A DNA stretch of 50,904 bases from a virus. Each line of letters begins with the position of its first letter. Positions within the stretch are counted from its first letter, which is position 1. The DNA lies in the IMG/VR virus record IMGVR_UViG_3300026484_000595, positions 1-50,904 of that record; one strand, given 5' to 3'. The notes beneath the pieces are model-generated. The model was not told where the DNA came from. It saw only the letters and a program-made list of their open reading frames with translations, and ran no database searches. The position numbers were made by a program, and so were the translations under genes. Positions 20,757-50,379 of the stretch are shown here, piece by piece.

Positions 20757-21256
20757 GAATTCCTCTTCAGATATTCAAATGTTACATCAAGTGTCAAAAT
20801 TTGATTTTCATTTTCCATAGAATATTGAATTCCACCTACTTCAATGGGAACTACACCTTCAAATTCATATTTTTTCTTCTTGTTTCCTCTTTCATCTAAT
20901 TGATATACTTCAAGAGAACCTTGCAAAATTCTATTTAAATTCCCCTGAACAAATGTATTATCGTGAAATGTTTGAAGCGAATATTCCATCCATTTTATAA
21001 AGAAATCTCTCACCTGATGTTCTGATTCAAGAATAAAACTTGCTGTTATTTGACCAAAAACAGTATCACCTGGAATTATTACCTTTTTTCCATAATAAAG
21101 CATTGTTTCTACATTATTTTTTGTTGATTCTATGTTTAAACTTTGACAAAACAATTCAACTGTTCTGTTATTGCCAACCGGTGAATGAATGAAAACAATA
21201 TACCTATTTGGTCTTGCAATTGATTTTACTTGTGATAAAAATTCATCCAACGTCAT
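20753..21256 (-). CDS. Tail-tube-fold paralogue, second of a tandem trio
   Basis: I choose ATG 21256, which overlaps the upstream TGA (ATGA) and gives a 167-residue product like its neighbours; an upstream TTG at 21268 is less likely. The protein begins MTLDEFLSQVKSIARPNRY, sharing the (A/I)RPNR(Y/F) segment with the main tube protein and the next gene, and ends with an aromatic strand (LDVTFEYLKR). A long QVRDFFIKWMEYSL helix matches the tube family's interdomain helix. It is a tube-fold protein, probably a cap, initiator or minor tube ring. Confidence 0.7.
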   Translation of the reverse strand: MTLDEFLSQVKSIARPNRYIVFIHSPVGNNRTVELFCQSLNIESTKNNVETMLYYGKKVIIPGDTVFGQITASFILESEHQVRDFFIKWMEYSLQTFHDNTFVQGNLNRILQGSLEVYQLDERGNKKKKYEFEGVVPIEVGGIQYSMENENQILTLDVTFEYLKRNS

Positions 21257-21756
21257 GATGCTTCCCAATAAGAGTATTCTATTGTAACCGAAAATTCTTC
21301 AATTTGACTTTCTGAATCCATTGATAAATCAATTTCTGAAATATCAATTATTACACAATGCCAAAATGTATATGTTCTTAAAATTTCTCCTCTTCTTCCA
21401 AGTTGAAAAACTTTAACAACAGAATTTGCTAAATACTCTTCAGGTCTTGCGTTATTTCCTTCTTTATTTGCTTCAAAAAATAACCATTTTTCAAAGAATT
21501 TTCTGCATTCAAAATCATAATCATTTAAGAATGTCAAAACCAAATTACCATGATTATAATCACCACCTATTTTCACTTTGTGTCCAAGATATTTCAATTC
21601 TATATTACCAATCTCGTAGTTGGGTATTTTAGCTCCTTTGCAACAGAATTTACACTTTTCAGGTAATTGACCAACAGGTGTAGTAATTTCTACTTTAAAC
21701 CTGTTTGGTCTTGCAAAATCTTTGACCTGATTTTTAAATTCTTCTAATGTAATCAT
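21253..21756 (-). CDS. Tail-tube-fold paralogue, first of a tandem trio
   Basis: The 167-residue protein begins MITLEEFKNQVKDFARPNRF and shares RPNR, a middle strand (GNLVLTFLNDYDFE), a long helix (CRKFFEKWLFFEA), an SEDL-like turn near VIIDISEIDLSMD and the closing VTIEYSYW with the main tube protein. It also has a Cys group near residues 36-39 (CKFCC) not seen in the other copies. It starts in a one-base overlap with the upstream gene (TAATG) and runs straight into its paralogue, so the trio is a coupled unit. The role is probably a minor ring or the tube end. Confidence 0.7.
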   Translation of the reverse strand: MITLEEFKNQVKDFARPNRFKVEITTPVGQLPEKCKFCCKGAKIPNYEIGNIELKYLGHKVKIGGDYNHGNLVLTFLNDYDFECRKFFEKWLFFEANKEGNNARPEEYLANSVVKVFQLGRRGEILRTYTFWHCVIIDISEIDLSMDSESQIEEFSVTIEYSYWEAS

Positions 21757-33836: not shown

Positions 33837-33850
33837 AAGAGGGGATATAG

Positions 33851-36800: not shown

Positions 36801-37591
36801 TCCGTTCATCTCTTTCTAATGAAAAAGTTTTCTTAACAGTAGTTCCTTCTCTAAAATTTGATGTTGTTTTCCCTGAAATTGATATGTTTATCAATGGTCA
36901 ATACTTCTTATCAGAAAAGAAAATCTTCAAACTTGAACCAAATAAAACATATTACTTCTTTGTAAAGAAAGATACCAAACCTGTAATATATCATACTGAT
37001 GAAATTACACCTGATACATTATCAGACATTTATATTGGATATGTTATAACTGACAATATAGGCATCAAAGAATCAGAATTTCATAAACAATTTCTAATTG
37101 ATACATATAAAACATTTGGTTTTGAACCTTATTGGGATGAAGTAGTAAATCTTGGTTCTGAAAACAACAAGTTTAAACATGTATACGCCAAAATGTTCTA
37201 TGGAACTGCTTACGAATCTCTTTATGCTGACTTAGCTGAAAAATACACAGTAAAAGGTAATCCCAAACCCGGTGATGTTATTCTAATTAGTGAAGATGAA
37301 AACTATGATGGTGAAATTTCAAATGAAATAGCAAGTGCTAAAGTATTAGGTGTTGTTTCTGAAAACCCTGGATTCATTCTTGGAAAAGAAGGTGTTCCAA
37401 TAGCTTTAAAAGGTAAGGTAAAATGTAAAGTAAAAGGTCCGGTTAAGAAAGGAGAAATTCTTGTATCTTACTATGATGGATATGCTATTTCTATAAGAAA
37501 CGTAAAAAATCTTCCACCGATATTTGATAAAGTTGGTGTTGCTCTTGAATCTACTGATAAGGAAGAAGATTATATCTTAATAAAAATGTGA
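33851..37591 (+). CDS. Tail fibre protein B with large receptor-binding insert
   Basis: The 1246-residue protein shares its N-terminal domain (about 1-235) with fibre A and its end domain (YADLAEKYTVKGNPKPGDV) with both other fibres. A single VDGSGSGLDADLLDG repeat lies near residue 325. Between about 345 and 1090 there is a large insert not present in fibre A, made of aromatic-rich beta segments with repeated WxxxF and GGW-type turns, possibly a beta-propeller-like receptor domain. The insert probably sets host specificity (inference). The start has AAGAGGGG upstream, and the end touches the next small ORF in a TGATG overlap. Confidence 0.85.
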   Translation: MFNEQYKLAQCDGIYNFFEKFNKVLESYFFQGTKNFIDNAHFKTILFDENENVYRIPRWKTSFKLKEDKFKKVPYGIEFYLNSGEYIEQEISEGLIPEHYYTLVVVLKPYKPIKLNLEGNYVIDGCESGCEEIFPPRKFGIYLKQFKFVRVDGKIKIKIEALEDDTTVYICNVNLYEGFIEQVGVFETKDGINVATRYGENHRWELTNDGENWYEILVNDGKLKEIIKNVFNELIDDWWSQDRIGLQRGIKVWIDNNKKINFDVNDFNIKLKGDVIGEAKVIDNNDVEIDTRVINIGEVSNKFAYKDLSNVDSEDVLEKVKEVDGSGSGLDADLLDGYDSKDFMPNPINLRITHIGDTDFLDLPVDPDFSGSAIPLRGGCPFVHPENSRYWYGLRVGTNYFENRLYYYKFDKDLNFITYGIEYRPLWLKENEWYSWIYSGNEHGFLAKLNDSNGNTKYHWIHTNGTMDYRKHEFTDVTDIIEGGFTGLAYVKEVEKWIFIRQIDNGQKITVYDKDFNVLDETFIIKKSELDLGEWSFGSWFHSSANQVFYYIENDKIYIFDGIGLWIYKPLDSKEICLRGYMIFDLKTNKLSRKFPLPESGKYSYPEHPIFANHALFRFYYHFIRPFDENRTIWIKQHTEDSYGYHIFYIIDKPFKQFLKDDLIDGMTSQTTSAIYIPDDASLIGKRIYNTLPFRFKGDKKDYVLVKGLHKKDKNHLEATSCLVINPNFDNPKEKPEDIKTLSWNVVLPYFKEETGDFFLYFLDEGNKKFEIVDNYNKLINQSQWLWSNYYGGWDENDIKETILNHYNIQNPEKFDVRVFPIPEMPNKLFVVYGLMKKVSDTEIRSIAGCCVFKKNYNDVFPGSNFLTFFDSTSSSWRLAMGRNSGDACFLKTPNDEYVVAFQTHWFATLGGNTSNFYSVYLGHVENDFVNISILKNFGNYPTWMRAEIGIHPHYGLYITESFNEGLVASKMRYQGNTSIYDSFRSSLSNEKVFLTVVPSLKFDVVFPEIDMFINGQYFLSEKKIFKLEPNKTYYFFVKKDTKPVIYHTDEITPDTLSDIYIGYVITDNIGIKESEFHKQFLIDTYKTFGFEPYWDEVVNLGSENNKFKHVYAKMFYGTAYESLYADLAEKYTVKGNPKPGDVILISEDENYDGEISNEIASAKVLGVVSENPGFILGKEGVPIALKGKVKCKVKGPVKKGEILVSYYDGYAISIRNVKNLPPIFDKVGVALESTDKEEDYILIKM

Positions 37592-37872: not shown

Positions 37873-38311
37873 TTTTTTTCTTTTTGACGAAAACTTAATT
37901 AAACTATTTGATATTTGTGAATTTAAAGGTGATCTACAAATTCAAAAATTAAGATTTTCTCGAAATTCAATCTTTACTAATGAATTTTTTTCTCTTACAA
38001 GAAATTACTTTAATCATACATTAAAATCATGGAAAGAAAAAGGCAATAACTTTAAAGATTTTGCTCAAGAACTTTATAATAAAAAATTTCTTATTCCAAA
38101 ATCCGTAATGATAGGTATTTTTCTTTATGACGAACCCATAACTGTTGATGAATTTGTAGCTTTCTTTTTTAATTCTTTTACTTGTTATCCTTTTCTATAT
38201 TCTTTACACATTCCAAAATCTCTTATTCCACATTCATTGAAAATTTATGCTTTACTAAACAAACTTTACAAATACACATTTACCCAATTTCAAGAAAAAA
38301 CTTCTGCTTAA
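37775..38311 (+). CDS. Hypothetical protein overlapping the previous ORF, perhaps its continuation
   Basis: The 178-residue ORF overlaps the previous one by 98 bases in the +1 frame. It has a plausible folded core: KTIDDFFLFDENLIKLFDI, an FAQELYNKKFLIPKSVMIGIFLYDEP segment and an aromatic-rich helix. The first 20 or so codons, up to about RTFGKEAKTIDD, may not be the true N-terminus, because a single +1 shift near 37830-37850 would join the two ORFs into one protein of about 240 residues. No ribosome site is clear before the ATG at 37775. Its last 32 bases overlap the 3' end of the convergent minus-strand gene. No family is recognised. Confidence 0.5.
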   Translation: MNKQQDIFLKNLFGTRLESIKRTFGKEAKTIDDFFLFDENLIKLFDICEFKGDLQIQKLRFSRNSIFTNEFFSLTRNYFNHTLKSWKEKGNNFKDFAQELYNKKFLIPKSVMIGIFLYDEPITVDEFVAFFFNSFTCYPFLYSLHIPKSLIPHSLKIYALLNKLYKYTFTQFQEKTSA

Positions 38312-39374
38312 AATCTATAACTTCTTTCTTTACTTTCAAACCAGATTTTTTCATAACTACATTTCCTTTAACATAAAGGGATTCAAAATTTACAAAAGCA
38401 AATCCTGATTTAAATTTTACATCATAATTAACTTCTATCCATGTATCTGTTGGAATTTCCATATAAACTTTATAATCAACCTTTGAAACCATATAAACAT
38501 CATCTATGCTTCTTTCTTCTCTTAAACACATCCAAATCGCTTTCATAATCTCTTCTATCAAATAATTTACAGGAATAGAAAATAAATGGTTTTTTCCGAT
38601 AAAAGTATAATAGGCAAGATTGTTCTTTATAAAAATTCTCATTTTTCCTTTTCCTTTTTTCTCAACAAGTGAACCACAAATGTAAGATATAGGTAAAGGA
38701 GCAAAAGAAGTTAGCCATAAATTTCTACTTTCTGACAAAGAAATATCAACAGGAATAATATCCCACCATTTGTCTTCTTTTATCTCCTCTTTATAAATCA
38801 ATCTCTTGTAAATCATCATATGTTCGCCTGTTTTTTCATTTACTATCAAATCTTTAATTTTTTCAGCAACTTCCTTAGATTCAAAAAATGAACTATCAGA
38901 ATGTTTCATATATGGTAAACTCATTCCTGTATTCAAAGCACCGAGATATATAACCAAGGCATCATCTTTTACTATCTCACTAACAAATGCTTTTGTTAGA
39001 GCATACCACTTTTTGGCTTCATGATTAGAAGCTACTCCTATGCTTGAAATAAAGGTTTTATGTTTTGCTTTGGAACTTTTTAAAATATACAAGGACGAAA
39101 GAATTAAATCATTTATATCTTTTTCAAAATCTTCATATTTCATTCTTTTAAATCGTTTTGACTTATATCTCCATGCATTAAAAATGAGGTAATCAAACTC
39201 TTCTTCTATTGGAAACTCTTTAAAATTAGACAAATCAAATGTAACATTTTTAACGTTAGTCAAATCACATGCAGTTCTTGAATAATTAAAAACTTTAAAT
39301 CCTTCTTTTGAGAAAATTTCAGCTAAATCTTTTCCAAATCCCTTTGAAGCACCTATTATACATACTTTTTTCAT
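38280..39374 (-). CDS. Short-chain reductase fused to a hot-dog-like domain
   Basis: I choose ATG 39374, preceded by GAGGTG. A GTG at 39386 is also open. The 364-residue protein has an SDR N-terminal half: the cofactor motif GASKGFG (8-14), a D-L segment (47-48), LIFNAW (63-68, where N-N-A-G is usual), S110/S111, and the catalytic Y124 and K128. About residues 185-364 look like a hot-dog fold, with a central helix (LFSIPVNYLIEEIMKAIWMC) and a final double-strand region. The likely reactions are ketoacyl reduction and perhaps dehydration or acyl binding. It is the last gene of the cluster. The fusion suggests a dedicated modifying role rather than host fatty-acid synthesis. Confidence 0.75.
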   Translation of the reverse strand: MKKVCIIGASKGFGKDLAEIFSKEGFKVFNYSRTACDLTNVKNVTFDLSNFKEFPIEEEFDYLIFNAWRYKSKRFKRMKYEDFEKDINDLILSSLYILKSSKAKHKTFISSIGVASNHEAKKWYALTKAFVSEIVKDDALVIYLGALNTGMSLPYMKHSDSSFFESKEVAEKIKDLIVNEKTGEHMMIYKRLIYKEEIKEDKWWDIIPVDISLSESRNLWLTSFAPLPISYICGSLVEKKGKGKMRIFIKNNLAYYTFIGKNHLFSIPVNYLIEEIMKAIWMCLREERSIDDVYMVSKVDYKVYMEIPTDTWIEVNYDVKFKSGFAFVNFESLYVKGNVVMKKSGLKVKKEVIDFKQKFFLEIG

Positions 39375-39375
39375 T

Positions 39376-40419
39376 TTACACCTCACTTATTTGTTTTAAA
39401 AGTTTATTAAAATATTTTTCATAACTCATACAACGTGAAAGAATGTTATAAAAGTTTCCTTTTAGGATGTATAAGTTAGAACTGAAAATATCAGATTCAT
39501 TTTCCAAAGACCTAACATCAACAAAATGAATTATTTCAAAAGAGATATTTTTATGTTTTAATGTAATCTCTTGAAATTTTACAAGTTTATCATAATTAAC
39601 CTGTTGAAATTCCACATTGAATTTTATCGGCAATTTTCGCTTTTTAGCTTCTTCTAAATTCCTATCAGAATAAGAAGCTGATATGAATAATAAATTTATT
39701 TCTTCTTTTATCTTTTCCCATTTTTCTGGTTTTCCTGAAAATACCTTCCATCTCCATTGTGATGAAATATAATGTTTAAATTTCTTTATAGTATCTAAAT
39801 CTATTTCCGGTGTTACATCAGAAATTATAAGTTTTGAATCTTTAAATCTTTTATAATAATTCCAAAAAATATATTCTAAAAATTCCTCACCATACTTGTA
39901 GGAAAACTTTGAAATTCCACATTTAAAACATTGTCTTGGACAACCATTTCTTGTTAAAAAAAGTATATCTTTTGATAAAGTATAAGGATTTTTAAATCTT
40001 TGAGAAAACCATCTCCTAATTATTTCATTCTCTCCTATTTGCCAGGATGCTTTTTCTAAATTATTCTTAGTCTTTCTTCTTTCTCCATAAATTACCTCAA
40101 GTGCTTCTTTAGGATTAAAATGAATTATCAAACCATCAACAAAATCAAAATCATCAAAATGTTTTAATAAAGGTCCATGAAAAACTATTCTTATATCCGG
40201 ATTTATCTTCTTCACCTCATGACAAAGCCATTTGATTTTTGAAAAATATAAATTAGAAACTTCCATAAGAAGAACTTGTGCTTTCTTTACAGAATCTTTA
40301 TTTTTCCATAGCGGATGCACAAAATTATAATCTATTCCGTTTCCCAAAAGGAAAGTTCCATATACAGGAACAGAAAAATCAGGAACCCCATTTAAACATG
40401 AAATATGTATTACTTTCAT
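39376..40419 (-). CDS. Radical-SAM protein with B12-binding-like N-terminal domain
   Basis: The 347-residue protein has C160, C164 and C167 in NGCPRQCFKC, the CxxxCxxC cluster site. The N-terminal 150 residues look like the Rossmann-type domain that precedes many radical-SAM enzymes (NPDIRIVFHGP, then VDGLIIHFNPKEAL), but no D-x-H-x-x-G cobalamin motif is visible. The C-terminal part has a barrel pattern. Possible reactions include methylation or other radical chemistry on a peptide or acyl group. The start overlaps the upstream ketosynthase stop (ATGA), and 39374 follows after one base. Confidence 0.8.
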   Translation of the reverse strand: MKVIHISCLNGVPDFSVPVYGTFLLGNGIDYNFVHPLWKNKDSVKKAQVLLMEVSNLYFSKIKWLCHEVKKINPDIRIVFHGPLLKHFDDFDFVDGLIIHFNPKEALEVIYGERRKTKNNLEKASWQIGENEIIRRWFSQRFKNPYTLSKDILFLTRNGCPRQCFKCGISKFSYKYGEEFLEYIFWNYYKRFKDSKLIISDVTPEIDLDTIKKFKHYISSQWRWKVFSGKPEKWEKIKEEINLLFISASYSDRNLEEAKKRKLPIKFNVEFQQVNYDKLVKFQEITLKHKNISFEIIHFVDVRSLENESDIFSSNLYILKGNFYNILSRCMSYEKYFNKLLKQISEV

Positions 40420-41321
40420 CTGTTTAATTCATAAACTAATATTGTATAACTTCCACCAAAACCAGCAGAAAAAGAAAGAATACGAACAGTATCTTTATCA
40501 AAAGAGAAATCTTCTTTAACAAGATTATCAAGTATTACATTTTCATTCTTATAACCTTCTACTTTTTCTCTATTCATAAATCTCTCATAAAGATACAAAT
40601 CTTCTATAAATGTGCATTTCCCAAGATGATTAAATTTCCATTTTAAAGCTATTACAGGAATATCATATTTTGAATACACTCTTGCTTCACTTTCATCATT
40701 TTGTTGCGTTCCCGTTCCATGCGATTTTATAAAATCTGGTTGCCATTTATCTATCATAGGTTTCATAATTTCTTCAAAAAATTCTCCATCAAAATTTGCT
40801 GCTGATGGAATATTAAATGAAACAGAATCTAAAAGAACAAATTCTTTTTCATTCTTTGATATTTCCAACATAATAACTGCTTCAGCAAAATTGGTTCCAT
40901 GTTTTTCTTTATCAAATGGATAAACTTTTTCATATTCACCTAAAATACCAACTTTTTTGTAATAAGCGTTCATTTGTTCAGATACTTTATTATAACCAAG
41001 AAAAACAAAATTCTTAAATTGTGTCATTCGCCAAAGATGGATTCCTTTTTGAATACAATCACAAGTCCAATTCACATTAAGATTAAAACACCTTCCTTTA
41101 AAAAGTTTAGGAAAAACTAAAAGATTCTGATTAAGGATAGCATATCTTTTCTTTCCAAAAAATTTTGATATTTTCTCATTTTCAAAATCAGATACCAAAT
41201 TTGTTATAAAAAAATCATTTTCATTCAACTCTTTTCTGATTACTACCTCTTCCAATAATTTCACCAAATTAAATGGAATTTTTTGAAAATCTATCCTTTT
41301 TACCTTATACCTAAACTTCAT
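40416..41321 (-). CDS. Ketosynthase-like protein, second copy
   Basis: I choose ATG 41321 because GGAG lies seven bases upstream; an ATG at 41342 is also open. The 301-residue protein has a small N-terminal half and the full thiolase-fold ketosynthase triad: C87 in NWTCDC, H201 in KSHGTGTQQND, and H232 in KWKFNHLGKC. PFDKEKHGTNFAEAVIMLE matches the family's R-P-F-D-x-x-R-x-G segment. It is shorter than usual (about 400 residues in FabF), with the N-terminal domain reduced. It would condense acyl units on an acyl carrier protein, but the reduced size suggests a special role, perhaps together with the other copy at 47211-48290. Confidence 0.75.
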   Translation of the reverse strand: MKFRYKVKRIDFQKIPFNLVKLLEEVVIRKELNENDFFITNLVSDFENEKISKFFGKKRYAILNQNLLVFPKLFKGRCFNLNVNWTCDCIQKGIHLWRMTQFKNFVFLGYNKVSEQMNAYYKKVGILGEYEKVYPFDKEKHGTNFAEAVIMLEISKNEKEFVLLDSVSFNIPSAANFDGEFFEEIMKPMIDKWQPDFIKSHGTGTQQNDESEARVYSKYDIPVIALKWKFNHLGKCTFIEDLYLYERFMNREKVEGYKNENVILDNLVKEDFSFDKDTVRILSFSAGFGGSYTILVYELNR

Positions 41322-42318
41322 AATAATGCTCCATTTTTTCATCTAAATTCATTTTCCATAAATCAAATTTGTCAATTTTTGGATTATCTAAAGGTTTTTC
41401 ATTAAACATTAATTCATGGAACCTCAAGAATAATCTACAATCTCCTTGGAACCAACAAACTCTACAATACTTAACCTTACACCGATCACAAATAGGATTT
41501 CTTTTAGATTTAAAAAATGGTTTCCATGAAATAATTCCATTTTCTAAATTTCCTATCCAAAATTTCATATTCTCTCTTTTCCTTGTAAATTTCGCTCCAT
41601 GACAAAACCATATTTTCCCATCCGTATCAATAAACTGAACAGACTGACCAGCAGCACATATTTTAAAACCCCTTCTAAAACTAATCAAATTCCTCCTTAT
41701 AAAATCTTTATCTGATTTAGATAAAGAAAACCACCATTCTTCAAGTTCTTCAACATTTATACTATCCATAACAGGTGCATATATACTTCCCAAAATACTT
41801 TGATAAAATTTCATGTTTTCAATAAAATATTTCAATGTTTTTCTATGAATTACTGGATTAACCATTACTTTTTTCCTTTTTCTCTTTGCAACATTCATTG
41901 CTTCATTCCACGTTTCCATCGCTAAATCCCATGAATTATTTCTCATCAAGTCATGACATTCTTTTACTCCATCAATTGAAATTTGTAATCCTTTAAAACA
42001 ATCATAATCATTAAAATATTTCACTATTTCAGGATTTGTGCCATTTGTTGACATTAGAATATTCAAATCTGGTCTTCTTTTTTCTACATACTCAAGAATT
42101 TCTTTCACCAAATCCATTTTCATCGTAGGTTCACCACCCCATAACCATATAGATTTAACATATGGGAAAATATCTAATGTTTTCAAGAAATTTTCAAATG
42201 TATTTGCCTTTTTCTTAAAAAATCCATGTTCAAAACAATATGCACATTTCAAATTACAATCATCAATTATAGAAAAATGAATATTTGTTGCTTTCTTTAA
42301 AAACTCTTTTACAAACAT
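41311..42318 (-). CDS. Radical-SAM protein with SPASM-like Cys-rich end
   Basis: The 335-residue protein has C21, C25 and C28 in CNLKCAYC and the GGEP motif (61-64), as in peptide-modifying radical-SAM enzymes. Its C-terminal Cys cluster (ICDRCKVKYCRVCWFQGDC) is typical of SPASM or twitch auxiliary Fe-S domains. Such proteins commonly crosslink or modify ribosomal peptides. It overlaps the genes on both sides, and its start follows AGGGGAG. Substrate unknown, but the Cys/Tyr-repeat protein two to three kilobases upstream in the same operon is a natural candidate (inference). Confidence 0.85.
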   Translation of the reverse strand: MFVKEFLKKATNIHFSIIDDCNLKCAYCFEHGFFKKKANTFENFLKTLDIFPYVKSIWLWGGEPTMKMDLVKEILEYVEKRRPDLNILMSTNGTNPEIVKYFNDYDCFKGLQISIDGVKECHDLMRNNSWDLAMETWNEAMNVAKRKRKKVMVNPVIHRKTLKYFIENMKFYQSILGSIYAPVMDSINVEELEEWWFSLSKSDKDFIRRNLISFRRGFKICAAGQSVQFIDTDGKIWFCHGAKFTRKRENMKFWIGNLENGIISWKPFFKSKRNPICDRCKVKYCRVCWFQGDCRLFLRFHELMFNEKPLDNPKIDKFDLWKMNLDEKMEHYYEV

Positions 42319-43304
42319 TTTATTTTCTCCCCTCTAATTTTTGGCACAAAACCGATTATAATTTCCTGGTATCTTTCTAATATTTTATTCACATTTTGTG
42401 TAAACCAACAAAGAAATTCATTCGGCATATATCTGGATATTCCTCTCGATAATCTCTTTCTTGTCCATGGACATCTACAATAATGAAATCCTAAACCATT
42501 ACATTTATTTTCTATTTCAGTAATTGGCAATCTTATAAAACCTTCTCTTATATTACCTAACTTTATTCCATTTTCCCATCTATCCATAAAACAAGGATAG
42601 ATATTTCCTTTAACATCTATGTAAAGAAAATTACTTCCTGAACCGCACATGTTAAATCCAGCTTGACCAGTTCTTGCACTTCTTGAACAACAAATTCCTA
42701 CCTTATGAACAGGATTAAAATTTTTAATCTTTTCGCAAAGATTTTCTAAAACCCAAAAATAATCTTCAGCATATTTAACATCTTTGTTAATAATTGACAT
42801 TTTATCTATTCCAAGAGAAAAATAAATCATATCTTTTGTTTCAACAATTAAAGGTAACACAGATTCAATATATTTTTCTTTATTATAATTTGGAGGAAAA
42901 TTCAATCTATATGAAGAAATCTTTCTACCTTTCTGAATAACATCTACTATAAAGTCAAAATCCATTGATTTTCCTTCTCTCATTTCATCATTATAGATTC
43001 CATTATAAGACAAATATAAAATACAATTTTTTGATAATTCTTCAAGTTCTGCTTCATAACCTTTAGGAACACCAGAACATAAAATATACTTCTTTTTACC
43101 TAATTTTTCAATTATGTAATTGATGCTTTCTCTTTCTAATAATGGTTCACCACCAAAAAAGACTACTACAATATCATTTTGCTCCTTTAAAAAATCTATT
43201 ACTTCATCCAAACATTCCATTCTTTCTTTTGTTTTCCGAGCAAAACAATAACTGCAATTCCTTGGACAATCCGTTGTTATTTCTAAGACAAAAACAGTTC
43301 GCAT
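42309..43304 (-). CDS. Radical-SAM protein with Cys-rich C-terminal region
   Basis: The 331-residue protein carries C13, C17 and C20 in CPRNCSYC and GGEP at 51-54. Further Cys-rich parts include GICCSRSARTGQAGFNMCG, IYPCFMD and the C-terminal CNGLGFHYCRCPW, fitting a SPASM-like auxiliary-cluster region. It overlaps the upstream radical-SAM gene by 22 bases and the downstream one by 10. The N-terminus is short and the C-terminus basic. It probably acts with its neighbours on one shared substrate (inference). Confidence 0.85.
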   Translation of the reverse strand: MRTVFVLEITTDCPRNCSYCFARKTKERMECLDEVIDFLKEQNDIVVVFFGGEPLLERESINYIIEKLGKKKYILCSGVPKGYEAELEELSKNCILYLSYNGIYNDEMREGKSMDFDFIVDVIQKGRKISSYRLNFPPNYNKEKYIESVLPLIVETKDMIYFSLGIDKMSIINKDVKYAEDYFWVLENLCEKIKNFNPVHKVGICCSRSARTGQAGFNMCGSGSNFLYIDVKGNIYPCFMDRWENGIKLGNIREGFIRLPITEIENKCNGLGFHYCRCPWTRKRLSRGISRYMPNEFLCWFTQNVNKILERYQEIIIGFVPKIRGEKIKCL

Positions 43305-44077
43305 ATAGTTATTCCTCTATTCTTTTCAAGTTGAGCTATTTCACATTTCTTTATAACATTTGAAAACACTTTACAAGCGAAATCAATTTTTTCAAAATCT
43401 TCTTTTATATTTCCATAGCATTTATACTTTTGAGAATGAATCTTTAAACATGGATAAACAAAACCATCAATATCAACATAAATATTAAAATTGCATTTTG
43501 TATTCACATGTTTAATTAAACATTTCTTAGAAGGTTTATAAAAGAAAGAAAATGAATTTTTTTGAAAAGGAAAAACAGCTGAAAATTGTATATACTTATA
43601 TTTTTTCATTTCTCTTATCCATTCACTTTTTTCAAAATCATAAATTGTCTGGAAAAACTTAACAAATCTAACATCTATCTTTTCTTTTAATCGCCTCTTT
43701 AAATCTTCAAAAAACTCTAATAACCATATCTCAGAATTTCTATGAATTGAAATCTTCCATGTGCTAATTCCTTTTCCTATCCAATATAAAATATCTTTTT
43801 TGGTTAAAAGACTTCCATTTGTCACTACCCCAAATGTAAAATGTTTTGCTTTTTTGAATAACTTTATTATTTCCAACATATATTCTGGATATAAAAAAGG
43901 TTCACCACCAAAAAAAGAAAGAATATTAAAATAGGGATTTAAAAGATAAATCTTTTTAACAATTTCAAAATCTATCGTTCTTTCCTCTTTTTGAATGTAG
44001 CAATAAGGACAGGACAAATTGCAATTGTTTGTAATTTCAAAAAGAATAAATTTATGAATTTTGTGAAATCCATTCAT
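43283..44077 (-). CDS. Compact radical-SAM protein
   Basis: The 264-residue protein has C19, C23 and C26 in CNLSCPYC and GGEP (57-60), the SAM-binding core. The C-terminal part has several Cys (CLIKHVNTKCN, YPCLKIH, KYKC, KKCEIA, ITICEL) that could hold an auxiliary cluster. It is one of the two shortest radical-SAM-type proteins here. It overlaps the upstream unknown gene by 26 bases and the next radical-SAM gene by 22, so the three are probably coupled. Confidence 0.82.
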   Translation of the reverse strand: MNGFHKIHKFILFEITNNCNLSCPYCYIQKEERTIDFEIVKKIYLLNPYFNILSFFGGEPFLYPEYMLEIIKLFKKAKHFTFGVVTNGSLLTKKDILYWIGKGISTWKISIHRNSEIWLLEFFEDLKRRLKEKIDVRFVKFFQTIYDFEKSEWIREMKKYKYIQFSAVFPFQKNSFSFFYKPSKKCLIKHVNTKCNFNIYVDIDGFVYPCLKIHSQKYKCYGNIKEDFEKIDFACKVFSNVIKKCEIAQLEKNRGITICELFLS

Positions 44078-44606
44078 TTATTTCATTAAAATACATTGAT
44101 TTATATGGTTCAGGAAATAATTCATGTAAATTAGCAGTAGAAGCAAAAATAAACCATGGATCAGGAAAAACATAAAACCAATTATTATCATTTAAAATTT
44201 GAAAACCTATTCTCTTCAAACAAATTCTCATTACCGTTGAATAAGTATATTCAGGATAATTTTTCAATACATGATTCCATATATCTATGAAATTTTCACC
44301 ATTTTGTATTCTACCAACTACATCACTTACAACATCAAAAAGTATATTCCATCTAAATGTAGAATTATGGAAAACATAAAATCTTCCAAAAACTGTCATT
44401 ATATAATCTCTAAATTCATTTTTACCAAAAACATAATTTGTAATATCTTCCTTCAAAGTTAAGATATTAAAGAAAGTATCATAATTTGTTCCAACTGGAA
44501 CTTCCTTTAAAATCAAAAATCTCTTGTATATTTCCTTAAAATCTGATTCCGTATATTTATCAAGAACATAATCCAAAAATCCTATTACACTCTTATTCTC
44601 TAACAA
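44052..44606 (-). CDS. Hypothetical helical protein after the Cys-repeat gene
   Basis: I choose the TTG at 44606, which lies behind GGAGGGG. A TTG at 44624 is also open. No ATG lies near the N-terminus. The 184-residue product is helical and aromatic-rich, with no Cys cluster and no membrane span. It starts inside the end of the Cys-repeat gene and ends inside a radical-SAM gene. It is next to the proposed substrate, so a substrate-recognition or adaptor role is possible, but no family is recognised. Confidence 0.55.
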   Translation of the reverse strand: MLENKSVIGFLDYVLDKYTESDFKEIYKRFLILKEVPVGTNYDTFFNILTLKEDITNYVFGKNEFRDYIMTVFGRFYVFHNSTFRWNILFDVVSDVVGRIQNGENFIDIWNHVLKNYPEYTYSTVMRICLKRIGFQILNDNNWFYVFPDPWFIFASTANLHELFPEPYKSMYFNEINEWISQNS

Positions 44607-45640
44607 CCTATATCCCCTCCACAACCGCCTCCACCACCTTTATCACAATAGCCACCTCCGCCACCACCTTTATCACAATAATCGCAATTACAAGTGCAAT
44701 AATTACAAACACAGGTGCAGTAATCACAATCGCAAGTGCAATAATTACAGTCACAGGTGCAATAATTACAATTACATGTGCAAGCATAGTTGCAATCGCA
44801 AGAACAATAATTACAAACACAAGTGCAGTAGTTGCAATCGCAAGAACAATAATTGCAATCGCACTTACAATAATTACAATCGCAAGAACAATAATTACAA
44901 TTACATGTGCAAGCATAATTGCAATCGCAAGTGCAGTAATTACAATCGCAGGTGCAATAGTTGCAATCACATGTGCAAGCGTAATTACAGTTACAAGTGC
45001 AGTAATTGCAATCACATTTACAATAATTACAATCACAAGAACAACCGGTATCTTTATCGCAATAATTACAATCGCAAGTGCAATAGTCACAATTACAAGT
45101 GCAATAATTACAATCGCAAGAACAATAATTACAATCGCAAGAACAGTAATTACAAACACAGGTGCAATAGTTACAGTCACAAGTGCAATAATTACAGTCA
45201 CAAGTGCAGTAATTGCAATCGCAAGTGCAATAATTACAATCGCAAGTGCAGTAATTACAATCGCATGTGCAATAATCGCAATCACATACGCAATCGTCTT
45301 CTAATTCATTTATTTTCTCACGAATAAAATCAACAGATAATTTCTTTATCAACTCCTGGTGAGAAGTGAAAGGATAAGAAGGGAAATCAAGAGGAGGATA
45401 CCCCCACTTTTGCCTTATTCTATTTATCTCATCAACTATCTGTTTTACCCAATCGCCTCTTGCAAATTGACTTGGAAGAAATTGTCTATCAATCCAATCC
45501 GGTAAATTCTCTCCTCTTCTAATTAATTCTCTTTTGAGTGCTCCTCTTATTTCATCAAAATGAGATGCTTTGACTTTTGTCTTATGAGATTCTAATTCCT
45601 CTTGCCATTGTGTTATATTTGTTGGACAAGGAGCACCCAT
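44600..45640 (-). CDS. Cys/Tyr heptad-repeat protein, likely substrate of the radical-SAM/FAS cluster
   Basis: The 346-residue protein has an N-terminal domain (1-115) with helical KVKASHFDEIRGALKRELI and VKQIVDEINRIRQKWG. Residues 117-322 then form about 29 heptads of [TSK]-C-[DVN]-C-[ND]-Y-C. Three units have an Ala inserted before the last Cys (NYAC), and one break reads DKDTGCS. It ends with two Gly runs and CGGDIGC. The repeats hold roughly 87 Cys and 29 Tyr. No metal-binding or adhesin family fits well. It is surrounded by six radical-SAM genes and fatty-acid-type enzymes, so crosslinking or acylation of the repeats is an attractive but unproven idea. The start has only a weak ribosome site (TTGGAT). 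The first 115 residues could act as a recognition domain or leader. Confidence 0.85.
   Translation of the reverse strand: MGAPCPTNITQWQEELESHKTKVKASHFDEIRGALKRELIRRGENLPDWIDRQFLPSQFARGDWVKQIVDEINRIRQKWGYPPLDFPSYPFTSHQELIKKLSVDFIREKINELEDDCVCDCDYCTCDCNYCTCDCNYCTCDCNYCTCDCNYCTCDCNYCTCVCNYCSCDCNYCSCDCNYCTCNCDYCTCDCNYCDKDTGCSCDCNYCKCDCNYCTCNCNYACTCDCNYCTCDCNYCTCDCNYACTCNCNYCSCDCNYCKCDCNYCSCDCNYCTCVCNYCSCDCNYACTCNCNYCTCDCNYCTCDCDYCTCVCNYCTCNCDYCDKGGGGGGYCDKGGGGGCGGDIGC
44675..45292 (-). repeat. About 29 tandem 21-base coding repeats (Cys/Tyr heptads)
   Basis: The DNA repeats in steps of 21 bases (24 where Ala is inserted), in frame with the protein. Synonymous changes are frequent, for example TGC/TGT and AAT/AAC/GAT, so the protein pattern is kept while DNA varies. 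No spacer sequences exist between units. Confidence 0.9.
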
Positions 45641-45654
45641 TTTAATTTATCCAA

Positions 45655-46152
45655 TTAACCCTGTGTTTCCAATTCTTCTATTTTTGAAACTATGTTCTTC
45701 CACAAAATAAGAGCATCAGGTGATTTTCTTATAATTCCTGGTATATCAAAGTTTGTAAGCAACTGTTTTATTTCATCAAGAGTGAGCAAACCTTTCTTAA
45801 CAGCTATATAATGTAGCACAGAAAAACCAGATATATCATTATGACTTTGAATATATGTTTTTGCTTTGTCCAAATAAGTAGCACTATCAATATTCCCTTT
45901 TACATAGTTGTAATGAACCTTAAAATAATCAGCCACATCAGAAGTTATTCCAAGAGCATCAATTATAGAAACTAATCTATCCCACAAATCACCCTGTGCA
46001 TCATCAGGAAGATAACCAAAAATAAATTTTTCTACCAAATCCTTGTAATTTTTAGCTTCATCAAGATTATTTTCTATAACATTAAGAGTTTCTGTAAGTC
46101 TGTCAACAGGATTATCCTTCAACATAGCTATTGTTATGTCTTTTAGAAACAT
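45655..46152 (-). CDS. Hypothetical helical protein before the Cys-repeat gene
   Basis: A 165-residue soluble, mostly helical protein with no Cys at all, which is striking next to the Cys-rich one. It has no signal peptide. The start is behind AAAGGAGGG and the gene ends 15 bases before the Cys-repeat gene. Together with the gene at 44052 it brackets the proposed substrate, so it may be a chaperone, adaptor or structural partner. The family is not recognised. Confidence 0.6.
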   Translation of the reverse strand: MFLKDITIAMLKDNPVDRLTETLNVIENNLDEAKNYKDLVEKFIFGYLPDDAQGDLWDRLVSIIDALGITSDVADYFKVHYNYVKGNIDSATYLDKAKTYIQSHNDISGFSVLHYIAVKKGLLTLDEIKQLLTNFDIPGIIRKSPDALILWKNIVSKIEELETQG

Positions 46153-46165
46153 CTTTTACCCTCCT

Positions 46166-47209
46166 TTACATATCAAGAATTGAAAATTTTCCTTCTCTAT
46201 ATCTATCAACTATTACTTCATTCTGTTTTTTCGGAATGAAATACCTATACTTATTAACATTTTTCTTGCATTTCCTGCATTGTTCACATGTTATTTCACA
46301 AATACTCCATTTGTTTCTCAATCCAATTTCTTTAAGTTTTTCTAACTGTTTTTCCAGAATATCACTATCTATTAAATCCCAAGCATATCTTAAAACTATT
46401 CTTTCAGGATTAAATTTTTCATAAAGCATTATTATATCATCAACTAATCTGGTTAAATTGATATCATTCACAGTATATGATATTTTTAACTTAATTCCAT
46501 GCTCATTACATTCTTCCATAAATTTTTCAACATATTTAGAAACACCTTCACCATTAGGAAACTTCCTATACAAATCCATCTTTAAACCATCATGTGAAAC
46601 TTCAAGAGATACCTGCCCAAGTTCCTTTAACAAATTCCATTCCTCTTCTGTTAAAGGTATTGTTCCATTAGTGTTAATGGAAATGTAAAAGTTATATCCT
46701 TCATCCTTTAATTCAATTGCTTTTCTAATAAGTTTAAAGAGCAAATCCTTTCTCAGGAATGGTTCTCCTCCAAAGAAAACACATATAGCTTGTAGATTTC
46801 TCTCATTACATTCTTTTACAAAATCAACAAATGACTTTTCTAATTCTTCATATGTTGGGTCTTCATATCTTTCCTTATTCAAATAATTCTTCTCATAACA
46901 ATAAGAACATGCCAGATTACATTTTAATGTAATGTAAAAAATCTTTACATTTGAAAATTCAGCTTCACAGACACTTTTATTTTCTTTTTTCTCTTCTTTC
47001 TTTTCTACTTTCTTTTCACTTTTCTTTGAAAAATCACTTGAAATATAATTCAAAATTTCTTCTTTGTTCTCTTCCTGCTTTTCTTCTTTTGTCAAGAATG
47101 AATCACCTATCATCAAAACTAAAAGATTTGAAATTTCTTCCAATGTTTTTGAAACTGATTTTATTTTTTCTGAAATTTCCATTAACAATATTTCTTTATT
47201 TTCTTTCAT
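46166..47209 (-). CDS. Radical-SAM protein with charged N-terminal extension
   Basis: The 347-residue protein has about 85 extra N-terminal residues: a helix (residues 10-33) followed by a Lys/Glu-rich linker (41-80). The radical-SAM core comes next, with C97, C101 and C104 in CNLACSYC and GGEP at 147-150. The C-terminal Cys group (CEITCEQCRKCKK) could hold an auxiliary cluster. The extension might bind a partner such as a structural protein or the ACP (inference). It lies between the larger ketosynthase and the helical gene, with a good AGGAGG ribosome site. Confidence 0.85.
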   Translation of the reverse strand: MKENKEILLMEISEKIKSVSKTLEEISNLLVLMIGDSFLTKEEKQEENKEEILNYISSDFSKKSEKKVEKKEEKKENKSVCEAEFSNVKIFYITLKCNLACSYCYEKNYLNKERYEDPTYEELEKSFVDFVKECNERNLQAICVFFGGEPFLRKDLLFKLIRKAIELKDEGYNFYISINTNGTIPLTEEEWNLLKELGQVSLEVSHDGLKMDLYRKFPNGEGVSKYVEKFMEECNEHGIKLKISYTVNDINLTRLVDDIIMLYEKFNPERIVLRYAWDLIDSDILEKQLEKLKEIGLRNKWSICEITCEQCRKCKKNVNKYRYFIPKKQNEVIVDRYREGKFSILDM

Positions 47210-47210
47210 C

Positions 47211-48290
47211 TTAATCCTCCTTTTCTAAAATTGCTCCTCCTATTATTCCACCAAATCCATAATTTAGACATAAAACTCTTCTCAACTCCTTTTTCCTGTT
47301 TGTTATTATTAAATCCAATTCATTATCTTCCTTTTCCTCAAGATTAACATTTTTAATTATCATGTTTCTCTTCATGCTTTCACAAGCTAAAGCAATTTCA
47401 ATTCCAGAACAAGCTGATAATGTATGCCCTACAAAACCCTTAAAAGATGTTATAGGAATTTCAAAAAATTCCATTTCTTTAAAAACTTCACATTCAATTT
47501 TATCATTTAATTTTGTTCCTGAACCATGTGCTTTAATCCAATCTAAGTTTTCCAAACTAAATTTCTTTAGAAGTTTTTTCAAACCATCCTTTGTAAGATG
47601 AAATAAATTATTTTTAAATGAATCATATATCCAATGAAATTCAGAAATTTTTACTTTAAAATTAAAATCTTTAGCTATTTCTTTTTTAGTTAAAACTAAA
47701 AGATAAGCACCGGAAGCAATTACAAATCCTTTTCTTTCTCTATCAAATGGTCTTGATGATTTTTCCGGTTCCTCCGTTTTAAAACAAACTCCCATCATTT
47801 CATATATAGGCAAGGAATTTATTAAAATGTTAGCTGCTGAAAAAGCTAAAATAACAAAATCAACTTCCTTTAAAAGTTGTTTAGCAATATAGAAATCTGG
47901 AAAAATAGAAGCACAAGCATTATAAGTGCAAAAACAATACTCCTCAATTTTCCATTTTCTCACTATGTGAGAAAGAACTTTATTTGTAAGATAATGGCTA
48001 TTTTTATAAGGAACAAAAGGTTTACTTAATTCAATTTCACTTAAACCACTTGAAGCTATAACAGCTATTTTTCTATTTTTTAAATAATCCGGTTTTTCAA
48101 GTATCTCATCAAATAATTCTACTTCTTTTGAATATCTTTGAGCTAAAATTGAATTTTTACCAAAATTTTTCCATATTACAGGATAACCATTTACTAAAAA
48201 CGCCGGAGTTTTATTTTCCCTTATTCCAAAATTAAAAACTTCCTCTACATTTCCAAGAAAATGATTTATTTCATAATCAACTATATACAT
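47211..48290 (-). CDS. Ketosynthase-like protein, first copy (beta-ketoacyl-ACP synthase fold)
   Basis: The 359-residue protein has C126 in NACASIFPDFYIAKQL, RPFDRERKGFVIASGAYLLVL, H255 in KAHGSGTKLND, H289 in FKGFVGHTLSA, and a closing LNYGFGGIIGG. This is the full Cys-His-His set of elongating ketosynthases. It is somewhat shorter than FabF. It would join an acyl primer to a malonyl unit on the ACP encoded two genes upstream. The start overlaps the FabZ-like gene by 14 bases. A chain-length-factor type pairing with the copy at 40416 is possible, but both keep their Cys. Confidence 0.85.
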   Translation of the reverse strand: MYIVDYEINHFLGNVEEVFNFGIRENKTPAFLVNGYPVIWKNFGKNSILAQRYSKEVELFDEILEKPDYLKNRKIAVIASSGLSEIELSKPFVPYKNSHYLTNKVLSHIVRKWKIEEYCFCTYNACASIFPDFYIAKQLLKEVDFVILAFSAANILINSLPIYEMMGVCFKTEEPEKSSRPFDRERKGFVIASGAYLLVLTKKEIAKDFNFKVKISEFHWIYDSFKNNLFHLTKDGLKKLLKKFSLENLDWIKAHGSGTKLNDKIECEVFKEMEFFEIPITSFKGFVGHTLSACSGIEIALACESMKRNMIIKNVNLEEKEDNELDLIITNRKKELRRVLCLNYGFGGIIGGAILEKED

Positions 48291-48684
48291 TTTTGTAAAG
48301 TTTTATACCAATTTTTAATTTCATACCTATTTTCTCGCAATATGCTTCAGCTATCACAAGAATTTCATTTCCCATTTTCAAAATTTTGTTGATTTTTACT
48401 TTTATCACTCTATTTTCATTATCCAAAAATTCATCTGATTTAAACAAATAAATTCTTGACACAATTGAATAATAATCTTTATAACCAAATAAACGAAACA
48501 TTTTTGAAATTGATTGTGAAACTGCTTCTATAATGAAAATAGCAGGAACAACTATTTTCCCTTTAACTTTATGATTCTGGACAAAATAGTTTTGAAAATT
48601 TATCTTAAATGAAAATTCATTTAAACTCCCTTCCAAATCTTTAACAAGATTGAATTCATTTTCATATATTTCTTTACTCCACAT
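48277..48684 (-). CDS. FabZ-like hot-dog protein (probable hydroxyacyl-ACP dehydratase)
   Basis: The 135-residue protein has the FabA/FabZ active-site region: NHKVKGKIVVPAIFIIEAVSQ with H38 and E53 in place of the family's H-F-P-x-x-P-V-x-P-G-x-x-x-x-E-A-x-A-Q. One extra residue lies between His and Glu, and the P-G is P-A. It should remove water from hydroxyacyl-ACP, but an altered loop could mean a different acyl specificity or a non-catalytic role. It overlaps the ACP gene by 11 bases and the ketosynthase by 14. Confidence 0.8.
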   Translation of the reverse strand: MWSKEIYENEFNLVKDLEGSLNEFSFKINFQNYFVQNHKVKGKIVVPAIFIIEAVSQSISKMFRLFGYKDYYSIVSRIYLFKSDEFLDNENRVIKVKINKILKMGNEILVIAEAYCEKIGMKLKIGIKLYKNVYS

Positions 48685-48958
48685 TCATCCAACCTTTGAC
48701 AAAATTTATCAAATCTTCAACCGTATAAACACCTGACAATTCCGCAAAATCTTCTATTTTTATTCCAAGTTTTTCTTCTATCATAAGAGCTAACTCAAGA
48801 TATCCCATACTATCAATTCCCAAATCCCTTAAATCTGTATCCATGGTTATATTTTTTATATCCTCTTCTGAAACTTCAATTAATCCTTCCCTCTTAGAAA
48901 CATCAAGATATTCAATAATTGTCTCAATTACTTTCCTTTCTATTTCTTTTCTATCCAT
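48674..48958 (-). CDS. Acyl carrier protein
   Basis: The 94-residue acidic protein has the ACP helix-loop pattern with DLGIDSMGYLELALMIEEKLGI; S50 is the phosphopantetheine site. It has a somewhat longer N-terminus than FAS-type ACPs. It would carry the chain for the ketosynthases, FabZ-like protein and reductase of the cluster. No phosphopantetheinyl transferase is seen here, so a host enzyme would activate it. It starts behind AGGAGG and overlaps the upstream radical-SAM gene by 19 bases. Confidence 0.93.
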   Translation of the reverse strand: MDRKEIERKVIETIIEYLDVSKREGLIEVSEEDIKNITMDTDLRDLGIDSMGYLELALMIEEKLGIKIEDFAELSGVYTVEDLINFVKGWMNVE

Positions 48959-49989
48959 TCTAAAAACCTCCTTTCATTTTTTAGTTTATCATATACCCAA
49001 TGTGCAACAGAACAAGTTGCCCTGTATAATTCACATACAGAAAGAATAGGGCATAATCCATCAATGTAATTTATCATAGAAAACATACACATTCCATTAC
49101 AAAAATCATATATCTTACATCCTTTACAACCAACATAATGCTTTGGATTATTCACATATCTAAATATTCTTACTAATTCCTTATCGCAATACCCTTCTTC
49201 ATCAATTATACAATAAGCATCCACGCTTCCAAACCTTTCACACGGATACCATTTTCCGTTAGGCAACAAAGCTAATCCTCTATGACCAGCAAAACAAGCA
49301 AAATCTCTTTTTCCATAGATAGAATCCATTATCCATAACCAAAATAAACCTATCATAAAGTTTTCTTTTTTAAACTTTTCAACAAACCATTTTCCTAATT
49401 CAACAATTTGCTCTTTATATAATTCAACATCTTCTTGAGACCATATATCATCTCTTACAAGACTAAAATCTATATACTTAAATCCGTTGTTAAGTAAATA
49501 TTCAGCATTTTCCTTCAAAGAAGCTATTTTAATTGATTCAGGAGAAATCATACATTTACATCCGCTTATCCTTTGTGAAAAATACTTTCTATAATTTTCC
49601 AAAATCTTCTCAGTAGAATTTTTACCTCTTATTTCATCCTGCCATAATCCATCAAAAGAAAGAGAAATACCTATTCCTTTTTCTTGAATAAAATTCCATA
49701 AATCATCATCCATATTAGTTCCATTTGTAATTAAAGTATAAGAAACTGGATAATCAGGAAAAATTTTTGGAAATACATCTACAAATTCCTTAATTTTCTC
49801 CGGATAAAGAGTAGGTTCACCACCAAAAAATGAAATTTGAAATCTTTGATTATCTGAAAAAACATGAAGATTACTCTTTAAATTTTCCAATGGAACTACA
49901 AAATCTTTGATAACTCCTTTCTTCTGTTTTACATAACAATACTTACAATTTAAATTACATTCTTCAGTTATGCTTATTTCCAGAATCAT
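48940..49989 (-). CDS. Radical-SAM protein with SPASM-like domain, first of the cluster
   Basis: The 349-residue protein has C11, C15 and C18 in CNLNCKYC, GGEP (56-59), and a C-terminal Cys group (CKGCKIYDFCNGMC and following) typical of SPASM peptide maturases. It directly follows gp25 and overlaps the ACP gene by 19 bases, so the cluster is joined to the structural operon. Its start lies behind AGGTGAAAAG, six bases after the gp25 stop. Of the six radical-SAM proteins it looks closest to standard anSME/SPASM types. Confidence 0.88.
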   Translation of the reverse strand: MILEISITEECNLNCKYCYVKQKKGVIKDFVVPLENLKSNLHVFSDNQRFQISFFGGEPTLYPEKIKEFVDVFPKIFPDYPVSYTLITNGTNMDDDLWNFIQEKGIGISLSFDGLWQDEIRGKNSTEKILENYRKYFSQRISGCKCMISPESIKIASLKENAEYLLNNGFKYIDFSLVRDDIWSQEDVELYKEQIVELGKWFVEKFKKENFMIGLFWLWIMDSIYGKRDFACFAGHRGLALLPNGKWYPCERFGSVDAYCIIDEEGYCDKELVRIFRYVNNPKHYVGCKGCKIYDFCNGMCMFSMINYIDGLCPILSVCELYRATCSVAHWVYDKLKNERRFLEWIEKK

Positions 49990-49995
49990 TTCTTT

Positions 49996-50379
49996 TCACC
50001 TTATCTTTTTTATAGTAGTTCTAAATTTTGTCGGTTTATTTGAACCTATTATTACAAAACTAACATCAATTATTATATCATGTTTATCCTCATCTGCAAA
50101 AACAGAAACTTCCAAATCTGTTATTCTTGGTTCAAAGTTAGAAATAGCATTGTAAACAGCATCGTGAACACCTAAAAGAGTATCAGTATCAAGAGGAGCA
50201 AAAAGATACTTTTTTAACGGACAACCAAATTCTGGATTATAAACTCTTTCTCCTGGTTCACATAACAAAATATTCTTGATACTCTCTATTACTGCTTTTT
50301 CATTATACAAAGGAGTTACATCCTCCGTAGTCATCTTCCTTTCTGTATCCCAATCAACAAAATATTTTTCATCTATCAT
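49996..50379 (-). CDS. 25: Baseplate wedge protein gp25-like
   Basis: The 127-residue protein has the gp25/lysozyme-like wedge pattern: a helix-rich N-terminal part (AVIESIKNILLCEPGER), the conserved EPGERVYNPEFGCPLKKYLF segment (41-60), and ITDLEVSVFADEDKHDIIIDV strands. In T4 gp25 joins the wedge to the sheath and tube and helps to prime sheath contraction. The gene overlaps the upstream gene (ATGA) and is followed six bases later by a radical-SAM gene on the same strand. This firmly places the cluster in the phage structural region. Confidence 0.93.
   Translation of the reverse strand: MIDEKYFVDWDTERKMTTEDVTPLYNEKAVIESIKNILLCEPGERVYNPEFGCPLKKYLFAPLDTDTLLGVHDAVYNAISNFEPRITDLEVSVFADEDKHDIIIDVSFVIIGSNKPTKFRTTIKKIR

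Follow-up and report, generated by a model that had tools for sequence, protein, structure and literature searches.

A phage operon that pairs radical-SAM enzymes with a cysteine-repeat protein and carries fatty-acid-type genes

We analysed the virus record IMGVR_UViG_3300026484_000595 of IMG/VR over its whole length. This stretch, a linear viral fragment of 50,904 bases with a G+C content of about 28%, is called the window here, and genes absent from it may lie elsewhere in the genome. T4-like tail genes are present, namely gp25, a baseplate wedge protein (phrog_219 1.6e-69) and several tail fibres. Directly downstream of gp25, beginning 6 bp past it, lie 14 minus-strand open reading frames (38280-49989) with intergenic gaps of −32 to +14 bp. 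These form one operon-like block, confirming an earlier description of the DNA from its letters alone (the sequence-only reading) as 14 overlapping genes in a tail/baseplate operon. The block encodes a Cys/Tyr-repeat protein (REP), radical S-adenosylmethionine (radical-SAM) proteins and a set of fatty-acid-type proteins that includes an acyl carrier protein (ACP), ketosynthases (KS) and a reductase of the short-chain dehydrogenase/reductase (SDR) type. From gp25 onwards the genes follow each other in this order (numbers after a family or structure are E values):

49996..50379 (−): gp25-like baseplate wedge protein, first recognisable gene of the transcription unit (PF04965 7.8e-18; phrog_261 5.9e-33)
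48940..49989 (−): rS1, radical-SAM/SPASM protein, core enzyme (PF04055 8.9e-16; NF047865 PapB 5.5e-39; CteB 5wgg 3.6e-17)
48674..48958 (−): ACP, Ser50 for phosphopantetheine, DSM motif (PF00550 2.5e-9)
48277..48684 (−): DH, single hot-dog protein, dehydratase- or thioesterase-like, H38...E53 (AlphaFold2 (AF2) model, pLDDT 73, pTM 0.69)
47211..48290 (−): KS1, FabF-type ketosynthase, Cys126/His255/His289 (PF02801 3.9e-12; NCBIfam 8e-33; PDB 1tqy 3.5e-20)
46166..47209 (−): rS2, radical-SAM protein, core enzyme (PF04055 9.5e-20)
45655..46152 (−): hel1, helical protein between rS2 and REP (position)
44600..45640 (−): REP, Cys/Tyr-repeat protein, presumed substrate (phrog_26958 4.5e-55)
44052..44624 (−): hel2, helical protein, TTG start (open reading frame only)
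43283..44077 (−): rS3, radical-SAM protein, weak SPASM (PF04055 4.4e-12; PF13186 0.0083)
42309..43304 (−): rS4, radical-SAM/SPASM protein (PF04055 9.9e-8; PF13186 5.6e-6)
41311..42318 (−): rS5, radical-SAM protein, SPASM-like Cys set (PF04055 3.1e-18)
40416..41342 (−): KS2, divergent ketosynthase, Cys94/96, His208 and His239 kept (NCBIfam PRK05952 1.7e-6; 7f27 0.0053)
39376..40419 (−): rS6, possibly radical-SAM, CX3CX2C motif Cys160/164/167 (motif only)
38280..39386 (−): reductase, SDR-type ketoreductase-like N-terminal part, GASKGFG, Y128xxxK132 (PF00106 2.6e-5; FabG-type NCBIfam 9.9e-6)

REP is a protein of 346 aa with 31 Tyr and 90 Cys, the latter a small correction to the 87 or so of the sequence-only reading. 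Its N-terminal domain (residues 1-116) is followed by about 28 heptads of the form CxC[D/N]CNY and a Gly/Cys tail. Exactly seven residues make up 25 of the heptads. In these 25 in-register units the codons of the three Cys and of the Tyr vary between synonyms only, and amino-acid changes are limited to three positions. The synonymous variation strongly indicates that REP is coding and that its Cys and Tyr are under selection; since, in addition, the neighbouring genes are conserved in independent phages, the heptads are not a product of chance. In an alignment of 28 repeat proteins (A2), E38 and the heptad Cys are invariant and R41 and R42 nearly so. The AF2 model of REP shows three confident strand-helix units in the N-terminal part, followed by a low-confidence all-beta array of the repeats. 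A single viral Foldseek match of this model (E 6e-5) was not trusted, given its TM score of 0.15.

Among the presumed enzymes, PF04055 scored above its cut-off in five genes (41311, 42309, 43283, 46166 and 48940; Pfam). Six radical-SAM proteins had been proposed from the sequence; the sixth, rS6, has the motif without profile support, as beyond CX3CX2C it gave no Pfam match up to E 5, no NCBIfam match and 0.5% in an hhalign comparison with rS1. The enzyme rS1 is 30-38% identical to 14 phage orthologues, and across all 15 sequences the radical-SAM CX3CX2C (C11/C15/C18) and seven Cys at SPASM positions (232, 250, 288, 291, 297, 301 and 319) are invariant. Its closest curated families in NCBIfam are all peptide maturases (PapB, followed by SCIFF at 2.3e-23 and the CXXX-repeat family at 8.2e-19), and its closest solved structure is CteB. 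Because its scores stay far below the curated cut-offs, rS1 is a member of none of these three families. Relatives of rS2 were found by phmmer at 1e-15 to 1e-30, and the third core enzyme of the related phages is closest to rS5 (about 1e-8 to 1e-16).

Relatives were sought with a DNA pattern that describes two C[ND]C[ND]YC units in a row, a search that is blind to the enzymes. The pattern was found at 44 viral loci, 27 of them distinct, and in bacteria and archaea it had 2 matches among 84,980 species. One of these two, L051 (PAAV01000055.1, titled Chloroflexi bacterium NAT137), is a 161 kb contig of a bacterial metagenome-assembled genome, on which fibre, repeat and radical-SAM genes form a phage-type region; the contig bears phage tail-fibre genes as well and is probably a virus. 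Radical-SAM genes like those of the window lie within 6 kb of the repeat at 21 of the 27 distinct loci. The six other loci are very short or reach the end of the contig or locus on one side, and close kin of two of them (L050 and L051) carry the enzymes in the stretch that is missing there. When compared within these loci, radical-SAM genes made up 56 of the 239 genes within 6 kb of the repeat and 3 of the 66 beyond (Fisher p 3e-4). PF04055 was present in 32 of 34 records, with 1-16 copies each. The reverse search, with an alignment of the rS1 family (79 loci), found a repeat gene near nearly all full-length rS1 relatives of at least 30% identity. Scans of viral contigs with single proteins were uninformative: no relatives came up with REP, KS1, rS6 or the phrog_1462 protein, and rS1 found unrelated radical-SAM genes only. 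A tblastn search with REP gave no match, probably because low-complexity filtering masks the protein. Two loci considered as relatives, L002 and L003, were judged unrelated. The pairing of radical-SAM enzymes with a Cys-repeat protein is a real, recurrent phage module.

The order of the genes is often kept as well. In the relatives it is usually a fibre gene, an rS5-like gene, an rS1-like gene, a small protein, an rS2-like gene, a helical protein of about 130 aa and the repeat gene; in most of them the rS2 orthologue lies one gene away from the repeat gene, and the rS1 orthologue, too, stands beside the repeat gene. Window and relatives have the series rS1, x, rS2, helical protein, REP in common, and in the window it is interrupted by fatty-acid genes. 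Between hel1 and the protein of about 130 aa at the same position in the relatives no sequence similarity was detected. For hel2, Pfam gave no family match and hhalign against rS1 gave nothing. The window also contains the following fibre genes:

31575..37591 (+): pair of tail-fibre genes that converge on the operon (31575-33836 matches phrog_19602 tail fibre at 6.6e-31)

Each of the two has matches among the fibre genes of the relatives, where such genes precede the repeat/radical-SAM module. Moreover, in three relatives (L011, L025 and L050) the repeat protein is fused to or followed by an S74 tail-fibre chaperone (PF13884).

More distant relatives of rS1 adjoin Cys-rich repeats of other kinds (CTGTCSGGC, CSCVARTS, CQSDKECRCESC and CNCDASCDG), some of them with a segment resembling E..RR. 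This suggests a wider phage superfamily of Cys-rich repeats with rS1-like enzymes, represented by:

L079 13277-14218, L086 9621-10676, L106 11060-11920, L110 7153-8010, L120 8407-9189 and L136 6418-7008: other Cys-rich repeat proteins near rS1-related genes

The jumbo phages Salmonella SPN3US (L133 6148-8263) and Cronobacter CR5 (L134 6175-8323) have a conserved radical-SAM pair that adjoins virion genes; they were rejected as members, as no Cys-rich protein was found among the neighbours examined.

Cultured phages carry the module too. The Campylobacter phages CP220, CPt10, CP21 and IBB_35 encode a heptad-repeat protein (534 aa; CPT_0180), and its neighbour CPT_0184 encodes an rS5-like radical-SAM protein of 389 aa. 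Timms et al. reported a 21 bp DNA repeat inside CPT_0180 as well as an unusual number of radical-SAM genes, counting about 22 phage-borne members among the 27,000 known in 2010 (PMC2853527). The repeat gene is not named in the main-text passages of the IBB_35 paper that were examined. In the records of CP21 and vB_CjeM_WX1 the repeat protein is labelled a putative N-acetylneuraminate pyruvate lyase, which is probably a misannotation. In pelagimyophages, radical-SAM cassettes inside the tail-fibre island of the host-recognition region were left unexplained (PMC7029224). In the open-access literature we found no paper that joins radical-SAM genes to a repeat protein; the pairing of the two, seen here in dozens of other, diverse tailed phages, is explained in none of the papers found.

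From these data we consider it probable that the module is a maturation system for a tail protein, a statement that concerns the core of radical-SAM enzymes and repeat protein and leaves acyl attachment out. Enzymes and repeat occur together, often in the same gene order, in no fewer than 21 distinct phages, and together with the likeness to maturases this makes it a well-supported prediction that the enzymes act on the repeat protein; to that extent the proposal of the sequence-only reading that the cluster modifies its repeats is supported. REP itself would be a virion protein of the host-recognition apparatus, because S74 chaperones are fused or adjacent to the repeat protein in relatives and the module stands beside fibre genes. 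The operon as a whole would then make and mature a virion protein of the tail fibre or baseplate. As the substrate, REP would present its long CxC[D/N]CNY array on a folded N-terminal domain, probably the part for recognition and assembly, and the PapB/SCIFF-like enzymes rS1, rS2 and the rS5-like protein, joined in the window phage by rS3 and rS4, would act on the heptads. A Cys-derived crosslink is the likely product; most likely the enzymes install C-S (thioether) bonds from Cys to nearby residues. Once crosslinked, the array may serve the host-recognition apparatus as a rod or patch that is rigid and proof against oxidation. This would be the chemistry of ribosomally synthesised and post-translationally modified peptides (RiPPs) applied to a viral structural protein. 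Crosslinks made by radical-SAM enzymes are known from small bacterial peptides.

The best curated match of rS1 to rS5 is the ranthipeptide system PapB/PapA (PMC9413430), which likewise consists of a radical-SAM/SPASM maturase and a multi-Cys precursor, and rS1 shares with it a CX3CX2C motif and a seven-Cys SPASM region. PapB joins Cys to an Asp or Glu residue within CX3D motifs, and in vitro it accepts spacings from 0 to 6 (PMC9413430). However, rS1 reaches 134.3 bits where 340 are needed (NF047865), REP has CX2[D/E] and C[D/E] with almost no CX3[D/E], and the system of the window is viral, with a structural-type protein and several enzymes per substrate. The SCIFF/CteB system resembles ours in its Cys-dense substrate and in CteB as the nearest structure. 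It differs in that rS1 scores 82.8 of the 425 bits needed (TIGR03974) and starts right at the radical-SAM core without an N-terminal recognition domain, and in that SCIFF is a small bacterial peptide. A tandem Cys-repeat substrate with a radical-SAM maturase is also found in the CXXX-repeat system (TIGR04114/TIGR04115), whereas the window has a heptad repeat that contains three Cys and a single Tyr; the enzyme score is 68.3 versus 350 bits (TIGR04115), and REP does not match TIGR04114. The phage loci with CxGxC repeats (L086, L120 and L136) are nearer to that system than the window is. Among phages, the Campylobacter group II phages CP220, CPt10 and IBB_35 (PMC2853527, PMC3322345) share the heptad-repeat protein and rS1-, rS2- and rS5-like enzymes, but their enzymes are partly scattered. 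The pelagimyophage cluster (PMC7029224) has radical-SAM cassettes in a tail-fibre island as well, but no Cys-repeat protein has been reported for it.

Several observations weigh against maturation of REP by these enzymes. All the enzymes score far under the curated cut-offs of the PapB, SCIFF and CXXX-repeat families (NCBIfam). The PapB-type spacing occurs only twice in the REP core (2 CX3[D/E], compared to 26 CX2[D/E] and 27 C[D/E]), and at the positions where the window heptads have Asp most relatives in alignment A2 have Asn, so that a Cys-Asp bond cannot be general. AF2 models the repeats of REP only weakly, and Foldseek found no significant PDB match. An S74 domain is absent from REP of the window, and Pfam found no S74 match in its operon. 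In the Campylobacter phages a long distance separates the repeat gene from the rS1- and rS2-like genes. With regard to the cluster as a whole, none of the 32 related records contains the ketosynthase family PF02801, and one of them has an ACP, in a different context.

The fatty-acid-type genes of the window were mostly identified as the sequence-only reading had them. The ACP and KS1 were confirmed, and KS2 is supported by a weak but real match. The DH model matches HadAB/FabA/FabZ and thioesterases in Foldseek (prob 1.0, best E 1.4e-3), and DH has no significant sequence match. A hot-dog dehydratase is supported by this model, and for the protein described as FabZ-like the hot-dog fold stands, with FabZ and also thioesterases among the matches. 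In the supposed fusion of a reductase with a hot-dog domain, the SDR part holds just under the cut-off (PF00106 24.2 bits, cut-off 26.6 bits) and the hot-dog half has no Pfam support. Like type II fatty-acid synthases, the set has an ACP, a KS pair, a hot-dog protein and an SDR-type reductase, and all catalytic residues of the fatty-acid/polyketide kind are present (ACP Ser, KS Cys-His-His, SDR Tyr-Lys, hot-dog His-acid). Unlike them, it lacks a malonyl transferase, an enoyl reductase and a loading enzyme and sits in a phage tail operon. It may also resemble aryl-polyene-like synthases. The reported absence of an acyltransferase, transporter, enoyl reductase and phosphopantetheinyl transferase was confirmed among the 14 genes by Pfam, which found no malonyl transferase either, in a record that is a fragment; the missing partners could be supplied by the host.

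This set appears to have been added to the core. The 79 loci of the rS1-family search contain no homologue of it, 50,697 phage records gave no match to the ACP (by tblastn) or the reductase, and the records of CPt10, CP21 and CP220 contain neither ketosynthase nor ACP. The ACP of a relative (G010, locus L048) was rejected as part of the same module, as it adjoins an unrelated hydrolase-like gene. Among the relatives tested, the fatty-acid-type genes are thus specific to the window phage and an acyl-enzyme addition was seen once. The idea that nothing comparable had been described has to be divided: the core of radical-SAM enzymes and repeats is widespread in phages, and what is peculiar to the window phage is its fatty-acid-type genes. 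Because the relatives lack these genes, the core works without them. Codon use correlates with that of the phage structural genes at r 0.96 for the fatty-acid set and r 0.97 for the radical-SAM set, so both look long resident.

Two functions may be stacked in the operon, with the radical-SAM enzymes modifying REP and the fatty-acid genes, an independent insertion, making a small lipid or polyene that alters the host envelope, for example against superinfection. We regard this as quite possible, though short of probable. It agrees with the lack of the genes in the relatives tested and with the fact that Pfam and NCBIfam recognised no acyltransferase of the kind that would attach a chain to protein. 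On the other hand, ACP, DH and KS1 separate rS1 from rS2 within the conserved core, the overlaps being 11-19 bp on the rS1-KS1 side and the distance from rS2 1 bp, and KS2 and the reductase are interleaved with radical-SAM genes as well. This placement favours a joint product of core and fatty-acid set, an argument from position only. The inserted ACP, DH, KS1, KS2 and reductase might supply an extra acyl-type group, using malonyl-ACP and a phosphopantetheinyl transferase of the host. That radical-SAM maturation is coupled to a phage acyl/polyketide synthase, resulting in a lipid- or polyketide-decorated crosslinked tail protein, seems doubtful to us, since nothing was found that ties an acyl chain to the repeats except the position in the operon; here the sequence-only reading, which had put the acyl or polyketide chain at the centre, went further than the data do. 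Our estimates for the decorated protein and for the independent insertion overlap with that for maturation of the tail protein, which covers the core only.

The core allows other readings too. REP could be a metal- or Fe-S-binding or a purely disulfide-rich protein, of which the enzymes modify a minor part or a partner. Its 90 Cys could bind metals, the C-x-C spacing suits metal clusters and the Cys are invariant. Several maturase-like enzymes per phage accompany the repeat, though, which fits better with Cys-modifying chemistry, and other Cys-rich repeat types also stand beside related enzymes; we therefore think this reading unlikely. Less likely still, in our estimation, is that the radical-SAM genes have nothing to do with REP and, as auxiliary metabolic genes, enhance the metabolism of the host. 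Such a role was proposed for CP220 and CPt10 (PMC2853527), and the auxiliary genes listed for marine viruses include radical-SAM genes (PMC9301287). The tight linkage to the repeat gene at 21 of 27 distinct loci speaks against it, as do the greater likeness of the enzymes to peptide maturases than to metabolic enzymes and their location in tail and host-recognition regions. A secreted phage-encoded RiPP, such as a bacteriocin or signal, would account for a RiPP-like precursor with maturases, but is the least credible reading, as Pfam recognised neither a transporter nor a leader peptidase among the genes of the cluster, the precursor is large and co-oriented with gp25, and relatives fuse theirs to the S74 chaperone.

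Maturation of a tail protein by the radical-SAM core remains the reading that we prefer. If the enzymes do act on the repeat protein, phages make chemically crosslinked structural proteins, which would put this chemistry to a new use and open a new source of crosslinking enzymes. The puzzling abundance of radical-SAM genes in Campylobacter phages and in the host-recognition islands of marine phages, so far taken for metabolic genes or left unexplained, would then be accounted for as well. Since cultured members exist, the claim is open to test. The 261 ahbD genes, auxiliary genes of the radical-SAM kind reported for Baltic Sea viruses (PMC9301287), may in part be enzymes of the repeat/radical-SAM module.

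Some further features were seen in the window and the related loci. Neither tRNA genes nor Rfam RNAs were found in the window, and promoter-pattern matches there were at chance level. Directly after the repeat gene, several relatives (L011 954-1346, L015 7535-7942, L023 9562-9960 and others) encode a protein that bears the motif EGIDxxTYAGKA and is about 134 aa long; no such protein was detected in the window. At L015 4721-7282 and L025 7389-9443 the repeat protein occurs, within one phage, as three or four paralogues in tandem, whose N-terminal domains differ. Downstream of the repeat gene, L007 (3421-6742) and L023 (1400-5792) carry more tandem radical-SAM-like genes together with a glycosyltransferase-like gene. 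Finally, two genes of the window, 9030-9548 (+) and 21253-21756 (−), look like paralogues, because both match the same gene of the relatives L019 and L041 (MAFNITAFRDGMHYDG..., possibly a tail-tube protein).

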